Below the pieces are notes generated by a model that saw nothing but the letters and a program-made list of their open reading frames with translations, was not told where the DNA came from and ran no database searches. DNA of 64,000 nucleotides from Achatina immaculata (lineage: Eukaryota; Mollusca; Gastropoda; Stylommatophora; Achatinidae), in the NCBI GenBank assembly GCA_009760885.1, contig CM019717.1, forward strand, positions 52,840,530 to 52,904,529. Reading direction: 5' to 3'. Of this stretch, positions 13,505 through 63,557 are shown in pieces (within the stretch, counting starts at the first letter, position 1; the number at the start of each line of letters is the position of its first letter). A program made the position numbers and the translations under genes.

Positions 13505-14645
13505 TCATTCATTCATTCATTTGCATGTCTCACGTGGAACTTTGCCTCCCTAACAGCACTCCTGTAGGCCTCTCGGTTGTGAGCAAGATGGCCTGCCGCT
13601 GCTGCATCCATTTGCAGATCGTCAACGATGTCTTGTAGCCATCTTCGTTTTGGTCTTCCTCTCTTTCTTTTTCCCATTATGTATCCTTCCAATACGGTCT
13701 TCTCTAAATTATCATGACGTTTAATGTGTCCAAAATATTTAAGTTTTCTCTCTTTAATCCTCTTTACTAGCCAGCCTTTTTCAATATTAAGCTCTTGTAG
13801 TATAGATATATTTGTTCTTTTTTGTGTCCACGATATTTGGAGAACTCTTCTATAGCATTTACATTCAAAGGCATTTATGTGTTTGTCAGCTGTTTTGTTA
13901 AGTGTCCAGGTCTCACAGGCATATGTTGCGACGGGAAAGATGCATGCCTTTAAAAATCTTATTTTTGCAGTTCTGTCTATTCCTTTCCACAGATTCTTTA
14001 GTTGTTTTACTTTCTGAAGAGCAATATATGTGCTCCTTTTAATTTCCCTCATTGTATCTCCATTATTAGTTAGTAGTGATCCAAGATATTCAAAACTCTC
14101 CACTTCTTCCAGTTTGTCCTCGTTGATACATTTATCAGCTGCCTTGTTTGTTTTGTCAGTTGTCATCACTTTAGTTTTCTTTGCATTAAGATAGAGGCTC
14201 TGTTCTTCGCTGTTCTTATGGACTGACATAATTAGTTTTTCCATTCCTTTTTGTGTTGTGGACAGTAATACTGTGTGATCAACATATCTAATCTCTGATA
14301 TTTCATAACCTCCAATTGTTATGGCATCATAATATTCTTTGTCTACATCTTCTCTAACATTTCTCATTATATTTTCAGTATACAAGTTAAATAAGTAAGG
14401 TGACAGTATACACCCCTGTTTTATTTCAAACTAAGTTGTTGTTTCACCATTTATTCTTACTGCTGCTTGTTGGTCTAGATACAGCAGCGATGTTAATTGT
14501 ATGAAATGTGTTTGAAATCCCATTTTTTCCATTATTTCCCAAATTTTCGGGTGTTGTACACAATCAAATGCCTTTGAGTAGTCTATAAAGGATAAATATA
14601 GATCGCATTAAACTCTCTGCATTTCTCTATTATTAATCTTATATT
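13505..14645 (-). mobile_element. RTE-like LINE copy 3, antisense in intron 1
   Basis: This is a 290-codon open frame of the same RT C-terminal region (TIGGYEISEIRYVDHTVLLS, YADD changed to YVDH), ending in an (AATG)n tail at 13,507-13,522. Unlike the first two copies it has no frameshift through the C-terminal domain, so it may be younger. The family similarity stops at about 14,645; AACTAT appears on both flanks and may be a short duplication. Confidence 0.82.
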
Positions 14646-15189
14646 ATAACTATAGGTTATCCATAAACAACGAAAGTTCAGAATGTTTATACTTTTAAAA
14701 CAGGTAAATTTCTTAAGAAATGCCTGACCTCACTCCGAACAATTATTCGAAAGCTAATGATAACACTTTTCATGTTTCTCTTCGTGTCAAGAAAGACTGA
14801 AAATAACTTGTAAAGAAAAAAGTTAGAGCAAGCTGAAAGAGAAAGCAAGAAGTTAACGTGAAGTGTGGCCCTTGCAGGGAAACAGAAGACTAAATGCGTT
14901 TATGGTCACAAGATGTCTGTCAGTTAGGATGAGCTTGCAGGCCGTCAGCGTGACAAGATGTATTTTAAGCAACATTTTGACTTTAATATCATGTTGAAGC
15001 ATGAGAGAAAGGTGTGCGCTGTAACCGAAGAGTTGTAAATGTTAACACAAAAGTTGGAAATACTGTATAAACTAGTATTTGCTAAGGTTTAGTGATATAA
15101 ACAAAATGGTGGATGTCTGATGTAGTATCAATGATAGCAGACGTACCCTGCCAAAAATATGCAACTATATTGTTTCGTTTTGTTGTTTT

Positions 15190-18100
15190 AATGCGTAATA
15201 ATTGTTGGAGATAAAATGGCTAATTTAAAAAAATAAAACAAAAAATGCATTGAGTCTTCTAACATCGAGTATGGCTTTTTATCTTCTTCTTCGTTCGCAT
15301 TGTCTGTCCTGTCTCTTGGACAAATTTCACTGGTTTTTTTTTTTTGTAATTCATGTAAGGAACCATAGAGCTTATCTTCTTTAGTGGTTTCACTGAGCCA
15401 GTAATTATTTCTCACTGTCTCGTAGTTAGTGCAGTTTTGGAGGATATGTTCCACCGTTTGGGGCACCTGGGCACATGTACATAGATTAGTAGTACCAACC
15501 TTAAACTTTGTATACATATGACTTCGGAGTCGGCTGTGTCCTGTTCGGAGACGGAAAATGGTGACTTGTTCATTTCTGTTTAGCATGTGATAGTCATCAT
15601 GTGGTGGTGTTTGTGGCTTCCTGTAGGTTTTTATCATGCTTTTCTTCTGATTATAGATGATTGGTATGTCTGGTTGCTCCATTTCAGTGCCCTCTTTGGC
15701 CAGACGGTCAGCTTTCTCATTGCCTGGTATCTCATAGTGGGAAGGAATCCACTGCAAAATGACTCTGTGTTGTTAGCCAATTTTTGATAAGGCATCCTTA
15801 AGAACTGGTAGTTTGTTGCACTGAATAGCTTCCAGTACTGATCTTGCATCTGTGAGAATTACTACGGGGCACGTATCAATTCTGGAGTCTGATAGTTTTT
15901 CAACTGCAGCAATAATTTCCCTAACTTCTGCATCATAGTTGTTGCAGTATTTTCCAGTGGGTATGGAAATCTTGTCAGTGGTGTTGTTTAGATATTCAAT
16001 TTGTGCTCCTGCCCCTCCATTCTTTATGACATTGTGTGCAGATCTGTCTGTATACACACGTATCCAGGTCATCATCATCATCAGGTGCCGTGCCGACTGG
16101 CGTTGGCTATTATGCTTCTTCAGAGTACACGATCCTTCATGCAGGCCATCAGTTCAGTTGGTGATCTCCTCTCACACCATCCCGTCAGATTGTCCAGCAT
16201 CATTTCTCTTGGTCTTCCTCTTGATCTTCTTCCTTCCATTTTTCCTGTTGTTATAATATTTTCAATTCCCCCTCTTCTAATTGCATGTCCTATGAAAGTA
16301 CATTGTCTCTTCTCTTATATCCATGTCTAACATGAATATTTGTCATCTAGCAAACTAAGCGTGGCTGTTGATCTTACTCGACTGCTTTGTATCTCACCAT
16401 TCTGCACACCTTTCACTTCAGTCTGAATAGTTATTTGTGTATAATCTGCTTCTTTCCATGGTGTATGCTCTGGTACAGATGACAATGGAGAGACTACAGT
16501 TGGAAGGTCAGGTATCAGCTTACGCATACGCTTGGCCTGATGAATGAAGCTGCTTCTTTTAAGCCGACTTAGTGCCAAGTTATTGAATCTCTCCTTCAGG
16601 GGATGGCTTACAGAGCTGAGGAATTTCTCTCCCAAGGTCATGACCTTTTTCTGCATTTCTACTATTGGTGTGGACCTCATGGCACCTGTGATAATCCGTA
16701 GTGACTGATTTTGTACCTTATCTAGATTATGCAGCGTAGTGATTGATGCTGTGCACCAATCTGTTGAGCCATATTCTAAATGTGGTAGAATACTTTGCTG
16801 ATATACATTCTTGAGGATTCTTTCACTAGCTCCCCATGTGGTTCCACTCAATTTTCTTAATATGGCTAGTTTTCTTCTGGCTTTTGCTTCTGCACTGTTG
16901 ATTTGTTGCTTCCAGGTCAGTTTTGAGTCAAGAGTCACTGCTAATAAATTGGTTGGTTGTCGATCCTTAAGGATATTTCATTTACAAAGATCTTACCTGC
17001 TTTCTGTTTAGATGAGTGAGTGAACAGAGTGGTACCTGATTTCTCTGTGTTGATACTTACACACCATTTGTTTGTCCATGATATCGAGATGTCTACTGCT
17101 CTTTGGAGTCTCTGTGTAGCAACTGTTGCATATTCATCTGTACACCACATGACCAGATCATCTGCATACAGTGTCGCTTTGATTCTATAGGGAAGTTCCT
17201 TGACCAGGTCATTAATGAATACAAGGAATATTGTAGGTGAAAGGACTCCTCCTTGTGGTACACCGTGTCGCAGCAGTACTTTCTGGCTTTTGTGTCCATT
17301 CATTACTACTCTAGCTCTTCTATTGTGTAAATAGGACTTTATCCAGTTGTACAGTCTTCCATTCACATTGCAGTTTCTTAGTTTCCACAGCAGACCTTTT
17401 TTCCATACTTTATCAAAGGCTTTCTTCAGGTCTATCCACGCTGCTAGTACAAGGTTTTTCTCTTGGAATGCATCCTCAGTCTCTTGAGAGAGATAGGTCA
17501 CTTGATCTTTCGTACTGTAGTACTGCCTAAATCTTGCTTGTTGTGGAATGAGAAGGTTTTTACTTTCTAGGTACCATTTTAGCCTCAGGTCAATGATGCG
17601 TTCCATCGTTTTGCAGAGGCAGCTAGTGAGACTGAATGGCCTGTAGTTAGAGGCAGTATCAATGTTACTCACTGGTTTTAGCAGTGTTACCATGCTTGCT
17701 TCCTTCCAGATTTGAGGTAACGTACCTGTGCTCCAGCACATATTGAAAATATCCAACAGCTTTCCCATTGCTGTCATTCCAAGTTTCTTGATCATTTCAT
17801 TGGACACTACATCTGGTCCTGGTGATTTCCATGGTTTCAGTTTATTGACTGCTAGGTCTAACTCACTGCGTGTGATTGGTGCATCCATGACCTCCACTTT
17901 TCTGATTTGTTCCTCTTCTTTCTGTGGGTCAGTGCGCACTGTATGCTCTTTCTCTGGATGGATATCAATGTTGCAATCTTGTGCAAACATGCGAGCAAAG
18001 TGATCTGCTACCTGCTTACCTGTAAGAGTTTTCCCATCCTCTATTAGTGTCGTCTTTGTACTTCTTCCAGTACTCTCATCGTTTAACTGTTTGATTAGTT

Positions 18101-19740
18101 TCCACAGTTTCCTTCCATCCTTTTCAAAGTTTAGGGACTCTGTTTTCTCTCTCCAACTTTCCCGTCTGGCTTGTAGCTTGGCTTTCTGAAATTTGGCCTT
18201 AGCATGTTGGTAATTATTGTGGTGTTCTTGGCATGGTCTATTTTCTGCTTGCTTTCGAGCTGTTCCCACATCATCATGGAGTTTTTCCCATCTCACTAGA
18301 CCAGTATGGTTTATAGTCCCTACGAGCTCCATTGGGAATGGTTTCACGGGTAGCCTGAAGGATACAAGCATTGAATTCCTTCACTATGCTGTTAATATCC
18401 TGACCTTCTATGGACATTTTTGGACCAGGATACCTGTACGATATCTGAACATTGTCCAATTTGCTTTTTATAGTTCCATCTGGGGAGAGGTCTACTGGTG
18501 TTAAGGAGTTCATTTTCTATTGTTAGGAAGACTGGCCGATGGTAGCTACCTCCAAGTTGTTTTCCAACTTCGCGTGTAATGTTCCACTTCAGGTCTGGAG
18601 AGTGGAGTGCCATATCTGGGGTTGAGGCTGTATGCCAAGCCCTTGAGTAAAATGTTGGCGGATCCATTGGCTGGTTGATCAGGAGAAGTCCATTATCATC
18701 CTGCTAGCTCTCTTCTCCTCTCTTGTCTGTGTGGTCATAGCCCCAGCTCTGGGAATGGCTGTTAAAATCGCCACAGACCATCAGTCTCTCTTTGTGTGGG
18801 ATTGTTTCTAGAGCAAGTAGGCGGTCATTAGGACAGTAATAGTTAAGGAGGTAGAAGTTTGTATTACTGGTTTTTAGATGGATCATCTGGTATTCGGCAC
18901 CTTCCATATACACTCCCACCTGACATGCGCTGATGTTATTCTTAACAAATGTGAGTACTCCTCCTTTTCGTCTGTCCTGTCGGTCTGATCTAAAACACTA
19001 GTAGCCTCTGATTTTAGAGACGGCATCTTTTGTTAGGTGTGTCTCCTGTATGCAGGATATATTTACCTGCTCTGCAATGAGTATGTTCTCTAGTTCCACC
19101 TTTTTTTGCTACAGCCATCTCTAACATTGCTAACAGCCTCAGCATTCCATTGCATTATTTTAAGTTCTTGCTTTTTGGCAGTTTTCTTCCGTTGTATTTT
19201 TTTTTGGCCAGTAGCTCTACTCTCATGTCTCCTGGCTCTACAAGACGAACTGAGAGGCCCTCCAGTAGCATTGGGTGGACCCTTTCGAGGCAGGGGGCCC
19301 GGCACTGCACCTGCCGGGTTAGTCTTCACAGGGCGAGCACCATGTTTTAAAGCATTTTTGACAAATTTCGTTAGCGATAATGAGTGTTACCCTGATTTTT
19401 GCTATGTGCCTTTTGGCACTCCGACTTCAGCATCTTTCCTTGCTAGGGCAGACTGTGGTCTTGCTCGGACTGCCATGAAGACAGTGTGGCTGGCCTGGCC
19501 AAAAGTTTGTTTTCCAGCCTCTGGTGGCTGTACTTAAGTCCCTTCTCCATGTCAGATGGTTTGGAGACAGTTCCGAAAGACACTCCGACTTTGGGATGAG
19601 GAATCTGATGAGTGCTTCAACGATATCCATTCCCCGCCACCTATAGTCTACTGGCTCTGTTTTGTTTACATTATTCTGATAGCCACTGTTGTAAAGACCC
19701 ATAAGCTTGTCACGTCCTGGATTCATTGGTTTCACACCAG
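15190..19740 (-). mobile_element. Near full-length I-type LINE with endonuclease, RT and RNase H (broken)
   Basis: Minus strand, from high to low coordinates. An ORF1-like tail lies near 19,735-19,430. The APE endonuclease (LKIMQWNAEAVSNV at about 19,170, IQETHLT, VCGDFNSHSQSWG at about 18,770, then PDMALHSPDL) is split by frameshifts. The reverse transcriptase is a 476-codon frame at 18,371-16,941 (PWKSPGPDVVSNEMI, GVPQGGVLSPTIF, LYADDLVMW). The connection domain is at 16,938-16,327. RNase H (VYTDRSAHN at about 16,050, WIPSHYEIPGNEKADRLA at about 15,750) is interrupted by a nested insertion. The RNase H domain places it among I/Nimb-like clades. Frameshifts and stops make it non-autonomous. 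Confidence 0.85.
16074..16321 (-). mobile_element. LINE 3' fragment nested inside the I-type LINE
   Basis: It is the same sequence as 7,793-8,070, with a (TGA)n tail at 16,070-16,083 on the minus strand. It lies between the connection and RNase H parts of the host LINE. The flanks read TATCCAGGTC and TATCCATGTC, a probable 10-bp duplication with one change. It therefore inserted after the I-type LINE. Confidence 0.75.
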
Positions 19741-21333: not shown

Positions 21334-22485
21334 GTGGTCTTCAATAGGTCCCGTGATCCCCCGTATAATCCTAGAAAAGGACAACACGAAATCCCCGAGA
21401 TGACAACAAGAGGTTCAGAGTATCGCAGGGCTTGAGCCTGTGTTCTTGGTGGGTCTCAGAAGCGGGATTGCGTGACATCATGGTTTTCGTTGCACCAGTT
21501 TGATCTAGAGTTGGGACTTTCTCACCAGAAAACCTCGACGTGTTTTGAGATACCCGTGTATCACCGCCGGCTTAGAGGTGGTAGCCCACCCAGGCTAGAG
21601 TTGGACTTTATCATTGGAAAACCTCAGCGTGATTAGGATATACATACATCCCCGCCGGGTGAGAGGTGATTGCCTATCTAGACTGCCCTGGTCCAGTGTC
21701 TCCGACTTCAGCATTTTGTGGTCGTAGCCGCTACCATTCCTACTTGTGACCAGGACGGAGCTTTTGTCCAGGAGGACGAATCCTAGCCACTAGTGACTTC
21801 CACCCCTGGGTTGAGCCGATTTAGACATATTATCCCTGTATGGGAGCGTTTAGGACGTGACTGATCTCTAGAGTAGAGGTACTGTGACATGCATAGCCAT
21901 CAAATTTCACCCCTGGTATATGCCGGTTTAAGCACATTTCATCAGTATGGGTGTATATCGGACGTAACCGACCTCTAGAGCGGAGGTATTGTGACATGTG
22001 TAGCCATCAAGTTTCACCCCTGGTGTAAGCTGGTTTAGGTGTATTTCACCAGTATAGGTGTATTTCGGACGTGGCCGGCCTCTAGAGCAGAGTATGAGTA
22101 GCTCTCGCAGCGATACAACTGGACATACCGATTAAGCTTCACTTTATCCTTTCCATCACCTTTTCACATCGGCGCCACACAGCAACCCTGATTACTTTTC
22201 CGCATTTTCTTTCTTGACCGAGAGGAGCTTCACTCCATGCGATTCATCCGAAGAATCTCATCAGCAGTGTCTTAACCTCTGGGTTAAGCCGGTTCAGGCA
22301 TTTCGCCCGATATGAGTGCACTTAGGACGTGGCCGACCTCCAGATCAGAGGTGCAGTGATTTGACTACTGTTTACTTCGCTTTATCCTTTCTTTCGCCTT
22401 TTCCACAGTGGTGCCGAGCGGCAACCCCATTTGCACCTTTCTTCACTGGCTGGGAGGAGCCCCACTCCACGCACGGCAGCTGAAG

Positions 22486-23016
22486 ACTCATTTCAATTAC
22501 GGGGCTTCGAAAGAGTCCCGTATTTTTATTTTTCGTCATTACCTCCCCGTGCCAGGAGTGGTTAAGTTGTGCGCCTGCTGCCTTCCTTGGATGTGGTAAC
22601 CGTTTCTCATGCTCCCTCTACGGAATCGAATCCTGATTCCCCGTTACAAACATGGTAGGCATGTCACGTACCATCGACATTTGATAGGGCAGACATTTGA
22701 AAGATGCGTCGCCAGCACAGAAGGCCATGCGATCAGCACAGAGTTATTCGGAGTCACCAGTTGGGACGCCGCGCCCCGCGAAGGGCAATGACGATTGGTT
22801 TTGAACTAATAAAAGGGCTCCTTCCACAAGGGTCGGAGCTTGGTAAGCATGTATTAGCTCTAGAATTGCCACAGTTATCCAAGTAGGATCGTGTCATCTA
22901 AGGAACCTCGACTGATTTAATGAGCCATTCGCGGTTTCACCGTGAGACTGTGAATTTAGACATGCATGGCTTAATATTTGAGACAATCATATGACTACTG
23001 GCAGGATCAACCAGAT
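22486..23016 (-). pseudogene. 18S rRNA 5' fragment (nt 1 to about 531) in copy A
   Basis: On the minus strand it runs from CTGGTTGATCCTGCCAGTAG through CACGATCCTACTTGGATAAC, AATACATGCTTACCAAGCTC, and CATCCAAGGAAGGCAGCAGG to the CCCGTAATTGAAATGAGT region, ending there abruptly. Several substitutions and small indels from the conserved 18S sequence show that it is a pseudogene copy. Confidence 0.92.
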
Positions 23017-23504
23017 AGCTTTCTTCACCGAACCTTAGTCGGATATCTGCCGACAGACCGACGCGGGGCAAGGGAGACAGCGCTCTGCTCAGAACGGATC
23101 CCTTTCAACCCCGGCGGTGTTTCATTTCCTTTAACCACCGGCGTCTCTCTCTGCTCTAACGAACGAGAAGAAAGTCCAGCACCCACAACCAACGCATATT
23201 ACATACTGCAGACCCGATACTCTTTGCGAGAGATGGGCCAATTTCGAGACCATCAGTCGACAACACCTTAGTACACCACCTACGCGTTAGCACGAACCTG
23301 GCTGGTTAGTCGTTTATGGGCTTCGCTCGAGGGACAAACCACTCGCTTCTACATCGAAACACCTTAACTCTCGCTGTCAGAGAAGTGAGCGAAAGCCTTT
23401 CTCCCCACGCATAGAACTCGAATGCGCTTTTTCGCCAAAAGAACGATCGACCTGCGCAACAACAGCCCGCGCTGTGCAGCTCGGCGCGGCTCTGGGCGGC
23501 TGAC
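23017..23504 (-). pseudogene. pre-rRNA 5' external transcribed spacer fragment in copy A
   Basis: It is collinear with the spacer part of copy C and ends at the same base; beyond it (ATCCCTGATT) the flanks differ. It shares the GC-rich block at 23,440-23,500 and the GACCGACGCGGGGCAAGGGA block near 23,060. Confidence 0.8.
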
Positions 23505-24104: not shown

Positions 24105-26235
24105 TTGTGCTCGAAGAGACAGAGCAACAATTGCAGATCTTTGAGAACAAGATCCTAAGAAGAATCTATGGGTCCTTAAAGGGTACCAACAGTGGAGACT
24201 GGAGAGCTAGAAAGAACACTGAACTGAATAGTTTATTTAAATCCCAAAGAAGTATAAATGTCTTGAAGCTGAACTGGTCCAAAGAGAGACCAGTCTTTAG
24301 CAAAAATACACCCTATTAACATCAAGTACAGACCAAAAACAAAAATGAGTCGAATGCTTCCAAGAACTGCTTAATCGACCACACCCACAAGAATTGTCAA
24401 CCAAGATGAAATTACACTGAAATAAATTGAAACAGCAGTGAACCTAATGACTAACAACAAAGCTGCAGGTGAAGATGAAATAACAGCCGAAATTTTAAAA
24501 TGTTAAAAGCTATTAACAGTGACAACATGTAGTTGAGAGAATGTTTAATAAAGTTTAGAAAGAAGAAAAGATCCCTTTTAAATGAAAAAAGAAATCATTG
24601 TTAAAATATCCGAAAGAGGCAGCCTTCGCGATTCCAATAACTTGAGAGGAGTTACCTTACTATCAGTTGTGTCTGAAGTATTTTGCAAAGTCATTTTGAA
24701 TAGATTAAAGATATAATGGATACTGCAATGAGAGAAGAACAAGCAGGATTTCAAAACGGGAGAAACTGTCTCGACCAGAACTTTAAGAATTATACTTGAA
24801 GAACATATTGAAAAGCAAAAATCATTAATCCTGAACTTCACAGACGTTAAAAAGGCATTTGAAAGCATACACAGAGATTCATTGTAGAGAACTTTAAGAC
24901 TGTATAAAGTACCATCTAAAACTGTCAACATCATTAGAGACCTTTACAATGGATATGTTTGTGCAGTCAACACAGAAGAAGGATTGAGTTTTTCGGTTCC
25001 AGATTGAAACAGGCTTGAAACAAGGATGTATATTACCTCATTGCTTTTTGCAATTGCCATAAACTTCATAATGAAAAAATATTGCACAGGTAAAACGGTC
25101 ACTGACTGGGTACATGGGACCTAACTAGAAGATCTTGATTTTGCACATGACATAACTCTTATCAGTGATAATGTGAAATTGATGCAAGGAAAAAATAAGA
25201 TACCCTGTCTTCACTGGCTAGTAAAATATGACTTGAAATTAACAAGGAAAAAAACAAAAATAATGAAACTTCCCATTAATCAAGAAGGAAAAATATACGT
25301 AGAAGGAACAGCTATTGAAGAAGTACACCAGTTTCCATACCTCAGCAGCTACATAGACCAGGATGGTGACACCAGAAAGGATGTTAGAATAAGAATTGCA
25401 AAAGCAGCATTGACCTTCAAGAGTCTTGAGAAAATATGGCACTCAGAAGCTATAAGCACAAAAACCAAGCTAAGGTTATTCAATTCAAATGCAATATCCA
25501 CCCATAGTTATGCATGTGAAAGCTGAAAACAACTAAAGAAACAGACAACAAATTAGACTTTTTTTTAAACAAATGCCTAAGAAAAATACTCGGTATAAAG
25601 TGGAACGAATTCAAGAACAAGGCAGAGATAAGGCAGATGAGCGACAACGACCTATCTCATGGGTGATCAGAAAAAGGAGATGGACGTATATCAGTCATGT
25701 GATGAGAAGAAATAGTCAGAGAATCTCAGAACAAGCTATCAAGTGGAACTCAACAGGCCAAAGAAAAAAAGGTCGACCACGTGAAACTCTAAAGAGGACA
25801 TTGTGAAGAGGTCAAATTAGTAGGTTGAAAAAGTCACACACAAAAAAAAACAATAGAAAAACTTGGCACACTACCATGCGTGGCCAATGTGACGCTGTTT
25901 GTGCCATGTAGAAAGAAGGGAAGACAAATGAAAATTATGTATGCACAAGAGATGAAGAAAACAAGACCAAGGGTTAGACTAAGAAAGAGATGGAAAGACA
26001 TCATAGAAGAGCATATAAAGGAAAGTCACCAACTAGAGAGAGAAGATTAGGAATATAGAGGAATGGAGGCGAACTTTATCTGCAGCAATGAGCCTTAATG
26101 GCCTTAATGGCCTTAGTGGAAACCTGAAGAAGAAGAAGAAGAAGAAGAAGAAGAAGAGAAGAAGAAGAAGAAGAAGAAAGGAGAAGAAGAAGAAGAAGAA
26201 GAAGACGACGACAAGGAGAAGGAAGAAGAAGAAGG
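24105..26235 (+). mobile_element. LINE reverse-transcriptase relic with (GAA)n tail
   Basis: Heavily mutated RT. Motif pieces include NLMTNNKAAGEDEITAEILK, ILNFTDVKKAFES, LLFAIAINFIMK and LDFAHDITLIS (catalytic ADD changed to AHD). They continue with KTKIMKLP, HQFPYLSSYIDQDGD and the C-terminal KKGRPRETLKRTL. It ends with a long (GAA)n tract at 26,127-26,235. Many stops and frameshifts. The GAA tail resembles that of composite retroposon copy C. Confidence 0.75.
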
Positions 26236-32623: not shown

Positions 32624-33903
32624 CGAGGAGTAATTGATAAGTTCTCGGTCTAAGGTACATGTTCTTGAAACACACAGTTGATATTAGGTGCATTTGTAGA
32701 TCAGGTTAATGTAAGATTAAACGCCAGGTTTCAAGAAAGTAACTGCAACCAATTTTTTTTACAGGCTACTGAAATAGTAGGGGTGGCAGAAATTGAGAAA
32801 ATGGATAAAATTTCTCATCGAGCTACCTCTGCATCAAGGGCTTACCATCGAAGGAGATCCATGAGGATATGTTAGAGACTAGGGGAGAGTGCACCTTCTT
32901 GCAACACAGTGAAGAAATGGGCAGCTCATTTCAAACATGGAAGGGAGAGTCTGGAAGATGATTCCCGTCCTGGAAGACCAAGGGCGGTAACCACAGATGA
33001 AACCACAGGCAGAATCCATGACATGATAATGGAGGATCCATGACTAACTGAGCGGTAGATTGCTACTCAGTTGGGCATCTCCCAGGAACTTGATCATGCC
33101 ATTATTCACAATGATCTTCAAATGACAAAGGTCTCTGCTCGATGGGTCCCGAAACTTCTTGGAGCTGATCACGAACGACAACGTCTCAACATGTCAAGAG
33201 ACAATCTTGGTCATTTTTCTGCAGATCTTGAAAAGTTTCTTCAGCAATTTGTGACTATGGATTAGACTTGGGTTCATTATTTTCAACCAGAAACCAAAGA
33301 ACAGTCAAAACAGTGGAAACATCATGGATCCCCACCTCCAAAGAAAGCAAGGGTGGTTCTGTCTGCAGGCAAAGTGATAGCTTCCATCGTTTGTGATTCA
33401 AAGGGTGTGCTATTGGTAGATTATCTTTAAAAGGGCAGAATGGTCACCAGGGTCTATTACGCTAATCTTGTGAAGCAACTGCTGGTCAAATTGAAAGAAA
33501 AGCATCAAGGGAAATTGACGAGAGGAGTCATCTTTCATCAAGACAATGCTCCAGGTCACAAGTCGGCGGTGGCAATGGCTGCCATTCATGAATACGGCTT
33601 CCAGCTTCTTGAACATCCTCCTTATTTCCCAGATGTGGCCCCTTCGGACTATTGCCTGTTTACCAAACTCAAAAAGGAGCTCAGTGGTCGCAAATTTGCT
33701 TCAGATGATGACGTCATTCATGCTGTAGACTACTTTTTACTGCCACAAGATGCTGACTTTTACAAAGAATGGATCCGTATGCTTCAGGATCGTTGGACTA
33801 GGTACATAAACTTGCGAGGGGACTATGTTGAGAAATAACGCAAACAATTTGTCCACAAATAATCCATTGCACCTCATGCCGAGAACTTATCAATCACCCC
33901 TCG
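32624..33903 (+). mobile_element. Full-length mariner transposon, transposase broken
   Basis: It is 1,280 bp with inverted ends (left CGAGGAGTAATTGATAAG, right the complement of CGAGGGGTGATTGATAAG), flanked by TA at 32,622-32,623 and 33,904-33,905. The transposase reads in pieces: an N-terminal part from 32,800, KVSARWVPKLLGADHERQRL at about 33,130, VTMD followed by a stop then TWVHYF (first catalytic Asp), HQDNAPGHK (second Asp) and PSDYCLF (third Asp; D34D-type spacing), ending GDYVEK. Stops at 32,873, 33,056, 33,263 and 33,428 plus frameshifts inactivate it. Length and ends are those of mariner. Confidence 0.92.
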
Positions 33904-35165: not shown

Positions 35166-35907
35166 GATGTTATCCACATGGTCGTCATCACTGAAATCTA
35201 ACAAGAGAACGAAGCGAGAGCTTTGTCACAGCAGGAAGCGAGAACGAACATCATGTCTAAGACGACACATACACAGGGATTTACGCGGGAAACGCTTTTG
35301 CCCTTTGTCAAGGAGATCTCGCCCTACATGGCGCCTCAACGGCCCTTTTTTGTGTGTGCAATTTTTCCTCTTTTTCTCAAAATACACGATGTATTTTATA
35401 CATGCGAATTTACTTTGGAGCTTTGGTCTCAGAAAAGGCGGATTTTGCGTAAATGTTCATCGTTTTATGAAACTACTGCTTGAAAACAAAATAAAAACAA
35501 CTATGTTTGATATATTCCCAGTTACAGACATTTTTTTGCGTAGGATTTCATTATACGTGTAACTGAAATAGCCTTTTAAAGAAACTGTTAACGTAAGCAT
35601 TTACATATATTGCGTGACGCATTTTGCTGTTCTGGAAAGATTTATATAGTATGTCACGCTGGATGCAGGAAATGCTCTACAATAGAGAGCGAAACAACTA
35701 CACAACTCTCTGGATCATCAGAGAAAGTATCTCTTACCCCCTAGACAAATATTTAGACGCTTAAACCTCTGACACTGGGGGTCGGGGGATGTCTCTCTAA
35801 GTTATGACTCCCATAGGTCTGCAAGTTGTTGGTTTCACGGTAGAGGGTTGTGAAAGAAACGAAGACTAGACGATTAGTTAAAAGGATGCGATTTGTCATT
35901 GTTATGG

Positions 35908-37350
35908 TTCTAAAGACTGTTAATGCCGGAGGTGGGGTGGAGGATACGCTCTCCACTCCAGTGGCATGCGTCTCAAATAGCCTCTGACAGTAAAGTCCAG
36001 CGCCTGGCCTTCTTGTGGCAGAACTGTTTAAACTGACAGGAGAAGAAGCGAAGGCGAATATCTGGCGAATGAAAACCAGACGCTGAGGGTAGATGAGAGT
36101 CATGTTTGGTAGCTCATCTGTCGCTGCTGGCGAGATTCTTCAGCTGCCGTGCGTGGAGTGGGGCTCCTCCCGGCCAGTGAAGAAAGGTGCAAATAGTGTT
36201 GCCGCGCGGCACCACTGTGGAAATGGTAAAAGAAAGAATAAAGCGAAGTAAACAGTAGTCAAATCACGGCACCTCTGGTCTGGAGGTCGGCCACGTCCTA
36301 AGTGCACACATATCAGGAGAAATGCCGGAACCGGCTTAACCCAGAGGTTAAGACACCGCTGGCGAGATTCTTCGCATGCCGCGCGTGGAGTGAAGCTCCT
36401 CTCGGTCAGGGAAGAAAATGCGAAAAAGCAATCAGGGTTGTTGTGCGGCGCCGATGTGATAAGGTGATGGAAAGGATAAAGTGAAGCTTAATCGGTATGT
36501 CCAGTAGTATCGCTGCGAGAGCTACTCATACCATGGCACCTCTGCTCTAGAGGCCGGCCACGTCCGATATACACACATACTGGTGAAATACGCCTTAACC
36601 GGCTTACATCAGGGGTGAAACTTGATGGCTACACATGTCATGGTATCTCTGCTCTAGAGGTCGGTCACGTTCTAAACGCGCCCATAATGGGATAATATGC
36701 CTAAACCAGCTCAACCCAGGCGTGAAGTCACTAGTGGCTAGGATTCGTCCTCCTGGACAAAAGCTCTGTCCTGGTCACAAGTAGGAAGGGTAGCGGCCAC
36801 GACTACAAAATGTTGAAGTCGGAGACACTAGACCAGGGCAGTCTAGATAGGCAACCACCTCTCACCAGGCGGGGATGTATGCGTATCCTAATCACTCTGA
36901 GGTTTTCCAGTGAGAAAGTCCAACGCTAGACTGGATGGGCAACCACCTCTCACCCGGCGGTGATACACGGGTATCTCAAAACATGTCGAGGTTTTCCGGT
37001 GAGAAAGTCCAACTCCAGCCTGGGTTGGCTACCACCTCTCACCCAGCGGGAATATACCGATATCCAAAACACGTCGAGGTTTTCCGGTAAGAAAGTCCAA
37101 CTCTAGATTAAACTGGTGCAACGAAAACCACGGTGTCATGTAATCCCGCTTCCGAGACCCACCAAGAATACAAGATCAAGCCCTGCGATACTCTGAACCT
37201 CTTGTGGTCCTCTCGGGGATCTCGTGTGGTCCATTTCGGGGACTATACGGGGGACCACGGGACCTATCGAGGACCACAGGCGTAAATTCAGTAGGATCAC
37301 AGGGCGGTCTTGGTGGTAGAAGCGAACGAAAAATAATAATAAGAAGAAGC
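35908..37350 (+). mobile_element. Composite retroposon, copy B (same body, different head)
   Basis: The body (36,126-37,350) matches copies A and C in reverse orientation. It includes the CTCTAGAG modules, the GAGAAAGTCC modules and the ending GGTGGTAGAAGCGAACGAA followed by a TAA/GAA tail. There is no rRNA. Instead 35,908-36,125 is an unidentified 218-bp head. CATTGTTATGG occurs at 35,897-35,907 and again at 37,351-37,361, flush with the tail, which suggests an 11-bp target-site duplication that includes the head in the inserted unit. If that match is chance, the element would begin at about 36,126 as a 5' truncated copy. Confidence 0.7.
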
Positions 37351-37544
37351 CATTGTTATGGCACTGTCTTATAAGGGTCTGAAACATTGACGAGACATAT
37401 ATAATAACAGGACATAATATATTAAGCTCAAGAGATAAAAGCCAGACAGTTTCTATCTTCAGGACCTTCGCTAAACAAAAAAAACGGCAAGAGGCAAGAA
37501 AAAGTAACGAACTGAGACACAAAGCTTCAGTCCTCTGTAACAAC

Positions 37545-38450
37545 ACTCAGTACAGGCAGCTCTTCAGCACGGTACAGGCCACTCTTCAGCTCAGTACAGG
37601 CAGTTCTTCAGCTCAGTACAGGCAGCTCTTCACCTCATTACAGGCCACTCTTCAGCACGGTACAGGCCACTCTTCAGCATGGTACAGACCACTCTTCAGC
37701 ATGGTACAGGCACTCTTCAGCATGGTACAGGCCATTCTTCAGCATGGTACAGGCCATTCTTCAGCACGGTACAGGCCACTCTTCAGCATGGTACAGGCCA
37801 CTCTTCGGCATGGTACAGGCCACTCTTCAGCACGGCACAGTCTACTCTTCAGCACGGTACAGGCCACTCTTCAGCACGGTACAGGCCACTCTTCAGCATG
37901 GTACAGGCCATTCTTCAGCATGGTACAGGCACCTCTTCAGCATGGTACAGGCACCTCTTCAGCTCAGTACAGACCACTCTTCAGCTCAATATAGTCAGCT
38001 CTTCAGCTGAGTATAGGCCACTCTTCAGCTCAATACAGGCACCTCTTCATCTCAATACAGGCCACTCTTCAGCACGGTACAGGCCACTCTTCAACTCAGT
38101 ACAGGCCATTCTTCAACTCAGTACAGGTCACTCTTCAGCTCAGGACATTCCACCCTTCAGCTCAGGACATTCCACTCTTCAGCTCAGTATAGGCACTCTT
38201 CAACTCAGTACAGGCCACCCTTCAACTCAGTACAGGTCACTCTTCAGCTCAGGACATTCCACTCTTCAGCTCAGTAGAAGCCACTCTTCAACTCAATACA
38301 GGCCACTCTCCAGCTCAGTACAGGCCACTCTTCAGCTCAGTACAAGCCACTCTTCAGCTCAGTACAGTCAGCTCTTCAGCTCAGTACAGTCAGCTCTTCA
38401 GCTCAGTACAGGCAGCTCTTCAGCTCAGCACAGGCAGCTCTTCAGCTGGG
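37545..38450. repeat. 22-bp minisatellite, about 40 units
   Basis: CACTCTTCAGCACGGTACAGGC with regional variants (GCATGGTACAGG, GCTCAGTACAGG, GCTCAGGACATTC). Period 22 is not a multiple of 3, so the long open frame across it cycles through three phrases. Confidence 0.93.
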
Positions 38451-49945: not shown

Positions 49946-49956
49946 TGTCTGCTTGT
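49946..49956. repeat. Target-site duplication of copy C, left
   Basis: TGTCTGCTTGT directly abuts the GAA-rich tail of copy C and is identical to 51,845-51,855. Confidence 0.85.
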
Positions 49957-51199
49957 CTTCTTCTTCTTCATCTTCTTCGTTCGCTTCTACCACCAAAACC
50001 GCACTGTGATCCTATTGAATTTGCGCCTGTGGTCCTCGTTAGGTCCCGTGGCCTCCTGTGTGGTCCCCGAAAGGACCACACGAGATCCCCGAGAGGACCA
50101 CACGGGGTTCAGAGTATCGCAGGGCTTTAGCCTGTATTCTTGGTGGGTCTCAGAAGCGGGATTGCGTGACACCGTGGTTTTCGTTGCACCAGTTTAATCT
50201 AGAGTTGGACTTTCTCACCGGAAGACCTCGACGTGTTTAGGATATCAGTGCATACCTGCTGGGTGAGAGGCGGTTGCCCATCCAGTCTAGCGTTGGACTT
50301 TCTCACTGGAAAACCTCAGCGTAATTAGGATGCGCATACATCCCCGCCGGGTGAGAGGTGGTTGCCAGTCTAGACTGCCCTGGTCCAGTGTCTCCGACTT
50401 CAGCATTTTGTGGTTGTGGCCGCTACCCTTCCTAGTTGTGACCAGGATGGAGCTTTTGTCCAGGAGGACGAATCCTAGCCACTAGTGACTTCCACCCCTG
50501 AGTTGAGCCGGTTTAGGCATATTATCCCAGTATGGGCGTGTTTGGGACGTGACCGACCTCTAGAGCAGAGGTACCGTCACATGCATAGCCTTCAAGATTC
50601 ACCCCTAGTGTGAGCCGGTTTAGGCAAAATTCACCAGTATGGGTGTATATCAGGCGTGACCGACCTCTAGAGCGGAGGTGGCATGACATGTGTAGCCATC
50701 AAGTTCCACCCCTGGTGTGTGCCGGTTTAGGCATATTTCACCAGTGTAGGTGTATTTCGGACGTGGCCGGCCTCTAGAGCAGAGGCGCCGTGATATGTGT
50801 AGCTCTCGCAGCGATACTACTGGACATACCGATTAAATTTCACTTTATCCTTTCCACCACCTTTTCACATCGGCGCCGCACAGCAACCTTTATTTCTTTT
50901 CCGCATTTTCTTCCTTGACTGAGAGGAGCTTCACTCCACACGCGGCATTCGAAGAGTCTCGCCTGCAGTGTCTTAACCTCTGGGATAAGCTGGTTCATGC
51001 ATTTCACCCGATATGACTGCACTCAGGACGTGTCTGACCTCCAGACCAGAGGTGCCGTGATTTGACTGTTTGCTTCACTTTATCCTTTCTACCACCTTTT
51101 CCGCAGTGATGCTGCTCGGCAGCCGCATTTGCACCTTTCTTCATTGGCCGGGAGGAGCACCGCTCCACGCACGGCAGTTGAAGAATCTCGCCAGCACCG

Positions 51200-51350
51200 G
51201 CCACAGTTATCCAAGTAGGATCGTGTCATCTAAGGAACCTCGACTGATTTAATGAGCCATTCGCGGTTTCACCGTGAGACAGTGTGAACTTAGACATGCA
51301 TGGCTTTATCTTTGAGACAAGCATATGACTACTGGCAGGATCAACCAGAT
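51200..51350 (-). pseudogene. 18S rRNA 5' fragment (nt 1 to about 151) in copy C
   Basis: On the minus strand it begins CTGGTTGATCCTGCCAGTAG, the near-universal start of eukaryotic 18S rRNA. It then contains CGAATGGCTCATTAAATCAG and CACGATCCTACTTGGATAAC before an abrupt switch to the retroposon body. It is a truncated, retroposed copy and not a functional rRNA gene. The molluscan-type sequence supports the taxonomic guess. Confidence 0.9.
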
Positions 51351-51844
51351 AGCTTTCTTCACCCAACCTTAGTCGGATATCTACTGACAGACCGACGCGG
51401 GGCAAGGGAGACAGCGCTCTGCTCAGAGCGGATCCCTTTCTACCCCGGCGGCGTTTCACTTCCTTTAACCGGCGGGGGTGGCCGGCGGCTCTCTCTGCTC
51501 TAGCGAACGAGAAGAGAGCCCAGCCGCCCACAACAAACACACATTACATACTGCAGACCCGATAATCTTTGCTAGAGATGGGCCAATTTCGAGACCATCG
51601 GTCGACAAAACCGTACTACATCGTTAGGACGAACCTGGCTGGCTAGCTGCTTACATTCTTCACTCGACGGACAAACCACTTGCTTCTGCATCGAAACAAC
51701 TTAACTCTCGCCGTCCGGGAAGGGAGCGAAAGCCTGTCTCCCCACGCACGGAACTCGAGAGCGCTTTTTCGGCAAAAGAACGGTCGGGCTGCGCAACAAC
51801 AGCAGCCCGCGCTGTGTAGCTCGGTGCGGCTCTGCGCGGCTGAC
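51351..51844 (-). pseudogene. pre-rRNA 5' external transcribed spacer fragment in copy C
   Basis: It lies immediately upstream (minus strand) of the 18S fragment. It aligns throughout with 23,017-23,504 in copy A, with few differences, and both end at the same base (plus-strand text GCGGCTGAC, then unrelated flanks). GC-rich, it contains CGCGGGCTG and GAAAAAGCGC stretches. Identity as 5' ETS follows from its position directly upstream of 18S in both copies. Confidence 0.8.
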
Positions 51845-51855
51845 TGTCTGCTTGT
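51845..51855. repeat. Target-site duplication of copy C, right
   Basis: TGTCTGCTTGT directly follows the first base of the pre-rRNA-derived head of copy C and is identical to 49,946-49,956. Confidence 0.85.
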
Positions 51856-53949: not shown

Positions 53950-54920
53950 TAACGTAGAGAGGAACATCTCTGGTGATAGATGTGGGTGAAAATAGTTAGA
54001 AAGCTCGTAGAGAGGAACATCTCTGGTAATAGATGTGGGTGAAAATAGTTAGAAAGCTCGTAGAGAGGAACATCTCTGGTAATAGATATAGGTGAAAACA
54101 GAAAGTTCTTAGAGAGGATAATCTCTGGTAATAGATATGGGTGAAAATAGTTAGAAAGCTCATAGAGAGGAACATCTCTGGTGATAGATGTGGGTGAAAA
54201 TAGTTAGAAAGCTCCTAGAGAGAAACATCTCTGATAATAGATATGGGTGAAAACAGTTAGAAAGCTCCTAGAGAGGAACATCTCTGATAATAGATGTGGG
54301 TGAAAATAGTTAGAAAGCTCTTAGAGAGGATCATCTCTGGTAATAGATATGGGTGAAAATAGTTAGAAAGCTCATAGAGAGGAACATCTATGATAATAGA
54401 TGTGGGTGGAAACAGTTAGAAAGCTCCTAGAGAAGAACATCTATGGTAATAGATGTGGGTGAAAATAGTTAGAAAGCTCCTAGAGAGGAACATCTCTGAT
54501 AATAGATGTGGGTGAAAATAGTTAGAAAGCTCCTAGAGAGGAACATCTCTGATAATAGATGTGGGTGAAAATAGTTAGAAAGCTCTTAGAAAGGAACATC
54601 TCTGATAATAGATGTGGGTGAAAATGTGGGTGAAAACAGTTAGAAAGCTCCTGGAGATGAACATCTCTGGTGATAGATGTGGGTGAAAATAGTTAGAAAG
54701 CTCCTAGAGAGGAACATCTCTGATAATAGATGTGGGTGAAAATAGTTAGAAAGCTCCTAGAGAGGAACATCTCTGATAATAGATGTGGGTGAAAATAGTT
54801 AGAAAGCTCTTAGAAAGGAACATCTCTGATAATAGATGTGGGTGAAAATGTGGGTGAAAACAGTTAGAAAGCTCCTGGAGATGAACATCTCTGGTGATAG
54901 ATATGGGTGAAAATAGTTTC
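53950..54920. repeat. 53-bp minisatellite, about 18 units
   Basis: AGAAAGCTCCTAGAGAGGAA then CATCTCTGATAATAGATGTG and GGTGAAAATAGTT. A longer block containing an extra ATGTGGGTGAAAAC and CTGGAGATGAAC occurs at about 54,620 and again about 230 bp later, a higher-order duplication. Confidence 0.93.
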
Positions 54921-56215: not shown

Positions 56216-56745
56216 TTAAACGTCACATAGGGCTCGCAAAGTAGTTCGACAATTTTTCCTGTCTTCGGTGAGTCTTTCAACCTCATCAAAGGATTTTATG
56301 CCTGTTAATTTGGCTTCTCTTAACAATGTCCTCTTCAGAGTTTCACGCGGTCTGCCTCTTTTTCTTCGGCCTGCTGTGTTCCACTTGATAGCTTGTTTTG
56401 GGATTCTCTGATCATTTCTTCTCATCAAGTGACTAACATATGTCAATCTCCTTCTCCTGATCACCCATGAGACTGGTTGTTGTTCAGTCATCTGTCTTAT
56501 CTCTGCATTGTTCGTGAATTCGTTCCACTTGATGCCGAGTATTTTCCTTATGCATTTGTTTTCTAAAGAGTTTAATTTCTTGTCTATTTCTTTAGTTGTT
56601 TTCCAGCTTTCACATGCATAAATGAGGGTGGATATTATATATTTGAATTGAATAGTCTTAGCTTGGTTTTTTTGCTTATAACTTTTGAATTCCACATGTT
56701 CTCAAGATTCTTGAAGATTGATGCTCATATCTACTATTAGCAGCA
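56216..56745 (-). mobile_element. LINE 3' fragment with 159-codon open frame, antisense in intron 3
   Basis: The frame reads STLIYACESWKTTKEIDKKL, NKCIRKILGIKWNEF, SWVIRRRRLTYVSHLMRRND, GRRKRGRPRETLKRTLLREA. It matches the copies at 20,830 and 25,500 but is much less decayed. Confidence 0.75.
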
Positions 56746-57890: not shown

Positions 57891-58442
57891 AGAGCTGTGT
57901 GAAAATGTTAACCGTTTCCAGCTCTCCTGCAGTAACTTTTATTATAAGATGTAAAGAAAGAAAGATGGCTGAATCTCCTAGTCTCCTGATTTTGTCTGAA
58001 CTGAGATGCACCAAAGTCCGTACACATTAGCAGCAATGCCGCGCTGTGTGCATGCAAGTCCTGGACTTGAGCGTACACAAAATTAGAAATTGGGCACCCA
58101 GGATATTCAACTTGTCATAGTAAAAAAAAAAAAACCCGGGCTTTGAAATATTTGTGGACCATACTTGAAAACTGGGCTCTGGCCTATCAGTAACCCAAGG
58201 AGTGGGAAATAGATCGCAAGTTAATATAGTGGACCACGTTGTTGGATGCGAACTCAGTTATATCAGGAGGAAAACTGTGTGGGAAATCCAGACTCCAGAA
58301 AATCTATGGGGGCCATAGTCTGGGAAATGGGCTCCGGGATATCTATGGGGCCTTAGTTTGGGAAATGGGCCCCGGGATATCTGTGCTGATACTCTTATTA
58401 ACACGTCCCCTTGAATTAATAAGTGGATTTTTCTTGCCCTAG

Positions 58443-60859
58443 GAATAAACCCTACAGCGAAAGCAAGATCACCCGCCATCTTGCTGGACGGCTTAAGAAG
58501 TCTGGTCTCAGCTATATCTATCCCGAAGGCAAAGACACCTCTCTTCACTGACCCGGATCTGCTTAACGTTAAACACGTGAGCCAGAAATCGTTAACCGAT
58601 TCGCCTAATTCAAAAGACGGTGCTGGAATTGCAGCGGTGACTTTGAAACCTACGTACAAGACGTACTCATTTATCCAGGAAGAACAGCCAAGCCAGAAGA
58701 CAACAGCCGTTCTGGGGCAAGAGTTTGCTAGCAGTATAGGGAAAGGAGCATTTAATGATCCGGATAAGCTAAATCGACTTCTGTCTAGGCTCGGCCAGTT
58801 AAGTACAGGCTCTAAACAAAGAATAAGTGGTTCCATCTCACTGAATTTTAGATCAACCTTTGCAAACAGCTCTGCAGCCTCTCCAAATCATGATGTCTCT
58901 TCAAGCGACCAGTTTTCTTCGGCCAATTCTAGACAGATCGTGGAGTCTATTAGCTCCGGGGCGTTTGATTCGACTACAACACAGTCTTCAGTCACATCAG
59001 CTTTACCGATTACTACGACACCGGAACCTACCACAGCGACTACAACGACGACTTCAACGACGACTTCAACGACGACTACAACGACGACTACAACGACGAC
59101 TACAACGACCAGTATGCCCACGACACTCGCATTTCACTACAGGGGAGGAGTTGTCGACGGTAGCGTGCCCCTTGCCGAACAAATCATCACGGAAGTTTCA
59201 TCCAATCTTATTTTAATTCCAAAACAAGTCCCGTATGATACAGCAAATATGTCTCTCATTCGCGCCAATAACGAACCTTTCAAGGCGGAGTTTATTTCAG
59301 CAATACATTCGTTGACCAATGAAATCTCGGCAATACCAAGCAACGACGGTGGTTTCGTTCAGTACTTAGGAGATCATGTAAAATTTCCCAGAAATTCAGG
59401 AGGTTATAGTGAAGCTGTTTCATCTTCTTTACCATCTTATAATTTTGCTGGTGGTGGTATTTCTGGTGGTGGGGCAGACTATAATTCACTGTCATCTAAT
59501 CACGCAAGACGAGAGTATGCAAATATGCATTCGGGGGCGGGGCCAGATAATACATATTCTTTTCCACAAGCTGTAAATGAAAATTATAGATATGATAATC
59601 AGTATGGTTACTTTGATCGACAACCATACTATTTTAATGATTTGAATGTAGCTGGTGGTTACCATCATTACACTGGCTCCAATTTTGGAGCCCAGCCTTT
59701 CACCGAAGCCCCGCCCCTGCATGCATCTAACGCATATTATTGGGACCAGCATCTTGCTCACATCTCTGATTTCATCATTCCAGATAATGCTGTCGGTCAC
59801 CCTAAAGCTACCAAGTCAAGCAAACCCGTGAGCGCTGCTGGTATGTCGTCTTTGCTGGGGAAGTTGGCCATTAGGTTGGCTTCAAAGTCTGTTGCCACTG
59901 CAGCCTCAAATCAGAATAGTGTCCAGCCGTCTTACAGCGTACATGCCCAGCCTGCTTATGGTGTGCAGGCTCATTCTTATGGTGTACAGGCCCAGCCTAC
60001 ATATGGTGTACAGGCCATGCCTACATATGCTTTACAGGCCCAGCCTGCATACGGTGTACAAGCCCAGCCTGCATACGGTGTACAGGCCCAGCCTGCATAC
60101 GGTGTACAAGCCCAGCCTGCATACGGTGTACAAGCCCAGCCTGCATACGGTGTACAGGCGCAGCCTACTTACGGTGCACAAGTCGCTCAACAACAGACCC
60201 AGCCTCACCCTCCACCTCACCCTCCGCCTCGCCAGCAAGGCCCGCCATCAGAATGGTCGGGGTTATTTGATATGACCCCACAGCAGCAGCAGCAGTTAAG
60301 TCGGAAATACCCGGCTCATCACTGGCTGCAGCAACAGCATCAGCAATATCATCAAGGTCAACCGCAGCAGCCATTTGGTCTGCAGCAAGGACAAACACAT
60401 TCATCAATGCAGCATCTTCAACAACAACAACAACACCAGCAACAACAACCACAACACCATCTACAACAACCAATGGGCGCTCAGTGGCAGCAGAGTCAGC
60501 AAGCCTGGCAGCACCTGCAGGGCCAGCAACTGCCAAAACCAGCAATGACCCAACAGTGGCCATCACTGCCTAATTCTCTACACCATGCACCAGTACAGGG
60601 TTTGCAGCCGAAGTCGCCGAGTTCATCGTGGAGCAGCCCGCCCGCGCAGCAGAACCAGGTGTCCCACGGTCAGACGAACGCACATGGGCCCGCAAACAGC
60701 AAACAAGCAGCCCCGCCACCTCACACCGAAACCACCACAGCTGCTGTCCCGGCTGATCCGTGGGTGTACGATCCCGTGCCGGCAGATGCCAACGTTACCA
60801 CAGAGATACCCCCTGCTGCACCAGCAGGCAAGAAAGTCGTTCATAGAATTGTTCATTAG
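58443..60859 (+). CDS. Terminal coding exon 4: large repetitive secreted domain
   Basis: The exon starts after TTTTTCTTGCCCTAG and ends at TAG (60,857-60,859), coding residues 197-1000. In order: a moderately complex region (197-385); a threonine run with a few serines (about 392-419), mucin-like; a second complex region with N-glycosylation motifs such as NMS (about 420-510); a Gly/Tyr/Asn/His-rich part (about 515-640); tandem octapeptides of the QPAYGVQA type (about 695-778); and a Gln/His/Pro-rich tail to the end, which includes NVTT near the C-terminus. No cysteine is seen. No enzyme motif is seen. The first codon that could act as a start inside the open frame is TTG, not ATG, which shows that this is a downstream exon rather than a complete gene. 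Long uninterrupted frame over 2.4 kb makes coding certain; the function is unknown. Confidence 0.92.
59940..60190 (+). repeat. 24-bp coding tandem repeat (octapeptide QPAYGVQA)
   Basis: About ten 24-bp units lie inside exon 4, each giving a variant of QPAYGVQA (for example QPTYGVQA, MPTYALQA). The central five units are almost identical in DNA, so recent unit expansion is likely; the edges are more diverged. The repeat stays in frame and keeps the Tyr-Gly pair in most units, as in repetitive structural proteins. Confidence 0.9.
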
Positions 60860-61690: not shown

Positions 61691-62009
61691 AGATCCATCT
61701 CTGAGCACGTTAGTTACAACGAAAAGGCCACGCGGATAAATTAACTGAGACAATCTCGTTGAATGTTTTCGACGAATGAAAGGCAAATGATTTTGCAGGG
61801 ATGAAAAAACTCTTTGGTTCAGACATTTTCATAATCATGACATTTTCTTACTGAATCAACCAAAAAAAAAAAAAAAAGCGACACTAAAAGTGGAAAAGTG
61901 AGATCAGTGTTGTGTTTAGCTACAAACTAAACAAGCCACAGCTGGGGTCATCATACACATGCTGGTGTAAATTTTTAACACGAGGCCCCGAAGTTAGTTC
62001 ATCACCATG

Positions 62010-63150
62010 TCTAAATCTGGCACTGTAGCTTAGTGCCTTCAACATGTCTAAATCTGGCACTGTAGCTTAGTGCCTTCAACAAGTCTAAATCTGGCACTGT
62101 AGTTTAGTGCCTTCAACAAGTCTAAATCTGGCACTGTAGCTTAGTGCCTTCAACAAGTCTAAATCTGGCACTGTAGTTTAGTGCCTTCAACAAGTCTAAA
62201 TCTGGCACTGTAGCTTAGTGCCTTCAACAAGTCTAAATCTGGTACTGTAGTTTAGTGCCTTCAACAAGTCTAAATCTGGCACTGTAGCTTAATGCCTTCA
62301 ACAAGTCTAAATATGGTACTGTAGTTTAGTGCCTCAACAAGTCTAAATCTCGCACTGTAGTTTAGAGCCTCAACATGTCTAAATCTGCCACTGTAGTTTA
62401 GGGTCTCAACAAGTCTCAATCTGGCAATGTAGTTTAGAGCCTCAACAGGTCTAAATCTGGCACTGTAGTTTAGGGCCTCAACAAGTCTAAATCTGCCACT
62501 GTAGCTTAGGGCTTCATCAAAGTCTAAATCTGCTACTGTAGCTTAGGGCTTCATCAAAGTCTAAATCTGGCACTGTAGCTTATGGCCTTAACAAGTCTAT
62601 ATCTGCCACTGTAGATTAGGGTTTCATCAAAGTCTAAATCTGGCACTGTAGCTTATGGCCTTAACAAGTCTAAATATGCCACTGTAGCTTAGGGTTTCAT
62701 CAAAGTCTAAATCTGGCACTGTAGCTTATAGCCTTAACAAGTCTAAATCTGGCACTGTAGCTTAGAGTTTCATCAAAATCTAAATCTGCCACTGTAGCTT
62801 AGGGCCTCAACAAGTCTAAATCTGCCATTATAGCTTAGGGCTTCATCAAAATCTAAATCTGGTACTGTAGTTTAGGCCTTCATCAAAGTCTAAATCTGCC
62901 ACTGTAGCTTAGGGCATCAACAAGTCTAAATCTGCCATTATAGCTTAGGGATTCATCAAAATCTAAATCTGGCACTGAAACTTAGGGCTTCATCAAAGTA
63001 TAAATCTGCCACTGTAGTTTAGGCCTTCATCACAGTCTAAATCTAGCACTGTAGTTTAGGCCTTCATCAAAGTATAAATCTGACACTGTAGTTTAGGCCT
63101 TCATCAAAGTCTAAATCTAGCACTGTAGCTTAGGGACTCAACAAGTCTAA
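62010..63150. repeat. 37-bp minisatellite, about 30 units, downstream of the gene
   Basis: TCTAAATCTGGCACTGTAGC then TTAGTGCCTTCAACAAG. Distal units change to GGGCTTCATCAAAG and alternate two variants (TGGC/TGCC). Confidence 0.93.
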
Positions 63151-63557
63151 ACAGACGAGGATGAGAATTAATAAGATGAATGGACGAACATTAAGTAACA
63201 TATAAAAACTTTCTTGCCGGAAGTAATGTGAAAAAAATACAGAAGCGGTGCTGGAAAATAGTTTGCTTCTGTGCCTTCGTCTTGGATATGGCGCTTAGGC
63301 ATTTCTACTTTCAGTTGAAAAATATCAGTTTCCAGAAGTGTCTGTCATCTTTTTAACCAGATTCTCCAGTAACACTTATTATCCATAAAGTAATAATTAA
63401 AATAATGAGAAAACTTTTTTAAAGAAAATTTACATTCAAAAGCAAAATAAAATGTGCATTCTAACAGACAGTCGCACAAAAGTCTTCTGGGCTGCGAAGT
63501 AAGAAGATAGTGGATTATCATGACGGCCTCGCGTGACACTTTCAGTTAATACAACAG

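Follow-up and report, generated by a model that had tools for sequence, protein, structure and literature searches.

Probable repeated joining of the 5' part of a ribosomal RNA precursor to a retroposon body

Two of the three copies of a retroposon in the window, i.e. the 64-kb stretch of DNA analysed here, carry as their 5' head a piece that runs from a putative pre-rRNA 5' end through the external transcribed spacer into the 18S rRNA, and in one of these copies a single target-site duplication encloses this head together with a non-rRNA body. Pre-rRNA was probably joined recurrently to the 5' side of the body RNA, either by template switching of the reverse transcriptase or by a prior ligation of the two RNAs. 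All positions given below are coordinates within the window.

Three copies of one body and their heads

Copy C spans positions 49957-51844 on the minus strand and reads in minus-strand order as duplication (51845-51855), a putative pre-rRNA 5' external transcribed spacer of 493 nt that lies directly upstream of the 18S part and aligns with copy A (51844-51352), the first 152 nt of 18S rRNA (51351-51200), a non-rRNA body with a GAA-rich tail of together 1243 bp (51199-49957), and again the duplication (49946-49956). The body was delimited by alignment with copies A and B, and a tandem-repeat search found in it internal tandem repeats with 88-bp and 107-bp units; the longest open frame overlapping 49946-51855 encodes 105 aa. 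The 18S part corresponds to Rfam RF01960 (SSU_rRNA_eukarya), positions 1-154 of which align to 51199-51351 on the minus strand with E 5.4e-37 when the 154-base stretch is searched alone and with E 1.8e-12 in a 2-kb search; in the default Rfam scan of the whole window, copy A is the sole copy listed. The 18S sequence appears gastropod-like. The duplication TGTCTGCTTGT is a perfect 11-bp direct repeat that is flush with the GAA-rich tail on the one side and with the spacer start on the other, and it occurs exactly twice in the window when both strands are considered.

As rDNA is hard to assemble, one could suspect an assembly chimera, or else a later DNA recombination by which pieces of rDNA came to lie next to the body. 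Such an origin is highly improbable, as the flush duplication surrounds the whole of copy C, with an equal 11-mer at the exact spacing of this copy found at 0 of 20,000 random sites, and as there is a second, more decayed instance in copy A. The earlier note had described copy C as one insertion unit bounded by the 11-bp duplication, with a 1.24 kb non-rRNA body that ends in a GAA-rich tail and with an rRNA head that was part of the reverse-transcribed RNA. This description holds, and the single duplication around head and body supports their joint entry in one retrotransposition event; the lengths it gave, 494 bp of spacer and 151 nt of 18S, differ from ours by one base in the placement of the 18S start.

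Where exactly the head begins is indicated by copies A and C together. The five bases that follow the two repeats of copy C, GTCAG in the insert and ATCAG in the flank, are alike at four places, and copy C by itself therefore fixes the head start only to within five bases. Copy A opens at 23504 with GTCAGCC after a different flank, as does the spacer of copy C, and position 51844 is therefore favoured as the head start of copy C. Together with the place of the spacer before the 18S, this common start suggests that the spacer is the 5' external transcribed spacer of pre-rRNA, and on the same grounds 51844 may well correspond to the transcription start of the precursor.

Copy A (21334-23504, minus strand) has a head of the same kind, and its body was found by a self-search of the window. 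It consists of a putative 5' external transcribed spacer of 487 nt, the start of which aligns with that in copy C (23018-23504), the first 531 nt of 18S rRNA (22487-23017; RF01960, model positions 1-520) and a body that, according to self-search and alignment, starts 15 nt further in than that of copy C and is devoid of its 3' end and tail (21334-22486). In both copies the head is joined directly to the body and runs in the same direction. A repeat search at copy A found no target-site duplication around this copy, the 3' end of which is missing, and that head and body entered together is in this case based on the likeness to copy C. The 3' end of copy A adjoins a stretch in the opposite orientation that shares 78% identity with a LINE-like sequence (25599-26069). 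The truncated end at 21334 lies tail to tail with this stretch, which is itself cut just before the GAA tract of its relative, and perhaps the 3' part of copy A was lost by a deletion across two facing GAA tails. The assignment of this family as LINE-like is based on the match of a neighbouring frame (25125-25523) to PF20049, a domain that is also carried by one reverse-transcriptase relative; the LINE-like pieces at 56219-56701 and beside copy A have no Pfam match.

Copy B (35908-37350, plus strand) shares the body with copies A and C, its body and tail being placed at 36122-37350 by alignment with copy C, and it begins with a head of about 214 nt (35908-36121) that contains no rRNA and is unrelated to the heads of the other two. 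Exact copies of CATTGTTATGG at 35897-35907 and 37351-37361 likely represent its target-site duplication. This pair emerged in a wider search, and a narrower one near the body gave none. The assignment is likely rather than certain because an 11-mer from near the end recurs by chance within the upstream span examined at 315 of 36,110 control sites (0.9%) when 11-mers occurring more than twice in the window are left out, and at 301 of 20,000 sites (1.5%) when all 11-mers are kept. The head of copy B has no Rfam match up to E 5, on which ground a known small RNA was rejected, no Pfam match in three frames, and no second copy elsewhere in the 64-kb window. A LINE endonuclease start was rejected as well, given the missing Pfam match in the three frames and no match better than E 1.4 among the 240 listed proteins (120 of 146 and 120 of 2418 hits).

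The window contains further mobile and repetitive sequences. Reverse transcriptase domains (PF00078) are found in two minus-strand frames, 13513-14430 and 16941-18380, the latter being followed downstream by an RNase H-like piece (15188-15772; PF00075, below cut-off), and 33431-33838 contains a DDE transposase fragment (PF13358, E 3.8e-06, 27.3 bits, just under the curated cut-off of 28.6), which we take to be mariner-like. Minisatellites are abundant, with 76 tandem-repeat rows in 64 kb, some of them for the same array (examples are 10338-12024, 37546-38447, 53955-54918 and 62002-63151). An open frame of 814 aa on the plus strand (58415-60859) is rich in simple repeats and has no Pfam match, and ARAGORN with bacterial settings detected no tRNA genes in the window.

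Joints and divergence of the two rRNA heads

The 18S/body joint lies after 152 nt of 18S in copy C and after 531 nt in copy A, and the sequence changes at positions equivalent to B 36122 and B 36137, respectively, with 0-1 nt of shared sequence at the joints as read by eye from the alignments of A and C. Copy C thus contains 15 nt of body that are absent from copy A, and copy A contains 381 nt of 18S that are absent from copy C. As each keeps sequence that is missing in the other, neither can be derived from the other by one deletion; with two copies, a common ancestor in which the additional body and the additional 18S were both present is formally conceivable.

The divergence between the two heads is uneven. 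Copies A and C differ at 53 of 479 positions in the spacer (11.1%) and at 4 of 150 positions in the shared 18S (2.7%; Fisher p 0.0009), and slightly different borders give 53/482 and 4/147 (p 0.0015). With CpG sites masked, the values are 34/379 and 4/140 (p 0.021), and the difference is then only moderate. Three of the four 18S substitutions fall on A and one on C when polarised by eye on the Rfam consensus, and copy C is therefore probably the younger insertion. In the body, A and C differ at 139 of 1147 positions, B and C at 113 of 1119, and A and B at 91 of 1045, which makes the rRNA-headed pair the most distant one.

These data bear on the possibility of a true rRNA-headed family, in which the head would have been joined only once, the resulting source element would have been amplified together with this pre-rRNA head, and A and C would be its descendants after later deletions. 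Two of the three copies indeed share the kind and the start of the head. However, descent by one deletion does not account for the two joints, the bodies of A and C are further apart than those of any other pair, and in a freely drifting chimera spacer and 18S are expected to diverge alike, which argues against a single amplified chimera; altogether, we regard such a family as quite unlikely. Two options of the earlier note, namely a template-switch product that was then amplified and a SINE head of a Pol I type, are not supported either, given the different joints (531 nt of 18S in one copy and 152 nt in the other, with a 15-nt offset of the body starts), the absence of rRNA from the head of copy B, and the unequal divergence of spacer and 18S. 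A SINE-type family would have the same head and the same joint throughout, and the three copies seen here differ. A copy that starts at +1 does not contain most of a Pol I promoter. With only three copies from a 64-kb window, an amplified subfamily around either joint may exist elsewhere in the genome. The joints and the unequal divergence fit heads that were taken from living rDNA twice and not at the same time.

Could the body instead reside in rDNA? If it were inserted, in the manner of R-type elements, in the 18S genes of some rDNA units, Pol I co-transcripts from the pre-rRNA start through the body could have been retroposed, and this would account for heads that always start at the precursor start and that evolve with the rDNA. 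It would require, however, that the body had entered 18S twice, each time in the same orientation but at another site, and with body starts 15 nt apart; copy C stops at the body tail without any 18S beyond, and all three copies of the window are located outside rDNA. Such a residence therefore appears unlikely.

Recurrent joining of pre-rRNA to the body RNA

For the favoured recurrent joining, a non-autonomous retroposon, presumably mobilised by a LINE and made up of a 1.2-kb body and a GAA tail, would on more than one occasion have been inserted in chimeric form. Target-primed reverse transcription would start at the tail and copy the body to its 5' region, where the product would continue onto pre-rRNA, either because the template is switched or because body RNA and pre-rRNA were already ligated, and copying would then run to the pre-rRNA 5' end. 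Copies A and C would represent separate events at different times and with different entry points into the 18S. Template switching, which had been mentioned before as a source of chimeras with small RNAs, is a fitting cause, and RNA ligation fits the data equally well. As for the machinery, a LINE-like copy in the window (25599-26234) ends in a GAA tract like that of the body and is a candidate match for the tail, with sequences before the tails that are unlike by eye.

The position of the joints deserves attention. All three copies of the window change in sequence no more than 15 nt from a common spot, which is also the 5' edge of an internal body repeat; the first unit of this repeat starts at B 36126 and the second at 36358, corresponding to 51196 and 50967 in copy C. 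By a rough estimate rather than a computation, two evenly scattered switch points would be this close in about 2-3% of cases, and the region of the joints is therefore either a preferred joining point, i.e. a hot spot, or the 5' end of the body RNA itself. RNA structure was rejected as a cause of the joint, as the folds are no more stable than those of shuffled sequences (z -0.05 and -0.48). One may tentatively go further and speculate that the body RNA lacks a constant head and regularly acquires one at a set position, with two of three copies having taken the pre-rRNA 5' end. If so, reverse transcription or the prior RNA ligation would take place beside nascent pre-rRNA, perhaps in the nucleolus.

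Several points count against a recurrent capture. There are only three copies, two of them with a pre-rRNA head, which is many for an accidental switch, and the joints lack the scatter seen in mammalian chimeras. Moreover, no duplication was found at copy A, the difference between spacer and 18S is moderate after CpG masking, and the LINE origin of the body is presumed. Should members of this family often capture pre-rRNA, their heads would be dated records of past rDNA spacers and would indicate the nuclear site of reverse transcription. The RNAs that are known to be joined to LINE-type insertions would then include the 5' end of the Pol I transcript, and the family would offer a natural system for comparing template switching and RNA ligation as sources of the joints.

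Comparison with known chimeras and rRNA-headed SINEs

An exact-term search of the open-licence PMC literature found no report of a retroposon headed by external transcribed spacer and 18S; exact pieces gave 0 matches in contig collections of prokaryotes (18S) and viruses (spacer and body), which is little informative. Among the closest known counterparts are chimeras of mammalian LINE-1, which carry U6, U3, 5S or 28S RNA and for which template switching or RNA ligation has been proposed (PMC13174262). As in copies A and C, the cellular RNA is on the 5' side of the retrotransposed RNA, the orientation is mostly the same for U6, U3 and 28S, and target-site duplications are often present (PMC13174262). 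The rRNA pieces named there are 5S and 28S fragments, the latter with 18 cases and a median of 269 nt, and the main text of that paper contains neither the term "18S" nor the term "external transcribed" (PMC13174262). Unlike in these chimeras, the piece described here runs from the putative precursor 5' end through the spacer into the 18S and comprises 637-1018 nt.

The MINEs of Magnaporthe grisea are similar in that a full-length 5' non-coding RNA, WEIRD (1.1 kb), is fused to the 3' portion of a retrotransposed RNA, in that there are recurring hot spots of switch points, and in that 14-bp direct repeats flank one chimera; their joints are without microhomology, comparable to the 0-1 nt found here (PMC2104539). 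Their 3' partner is a LINE (MGL) or Mg-SINE and their head is not rRNA, a term with 0 occurrences in the text of that paper (PMC2104539). In contrast to these partners, our body contains internal tandem repeats and no recognised LINE part. For chimeras made by LINE machinery, the 3' part is expected to be a 5'-truncated LINE or another retroposed RNA that is cut at random sites (PMC2104539). The two joints observed here are 15 nt apart and thus unscattered, next to a body in which no LINE part was recognised. With regard to the direct repeats that should flank the whole chimera, they are present in copy C, probable in copy B and not found in copy A with its missing 3' end.

The rRNA-derived heads of SINEs are a fixed part of their families. 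SINEs with 5S or 28S heads (SINE28) resemble the present copies in that the 5' part of a LINE-mobilised, non-autonomous retroposon is derived from rRNA (PMC13174262). In contrast to these SINEs, the head piece is long here and comes from a Pol I transcript, the two headed copies have different joints, and the third copy of the same body carries a head without rRNA.
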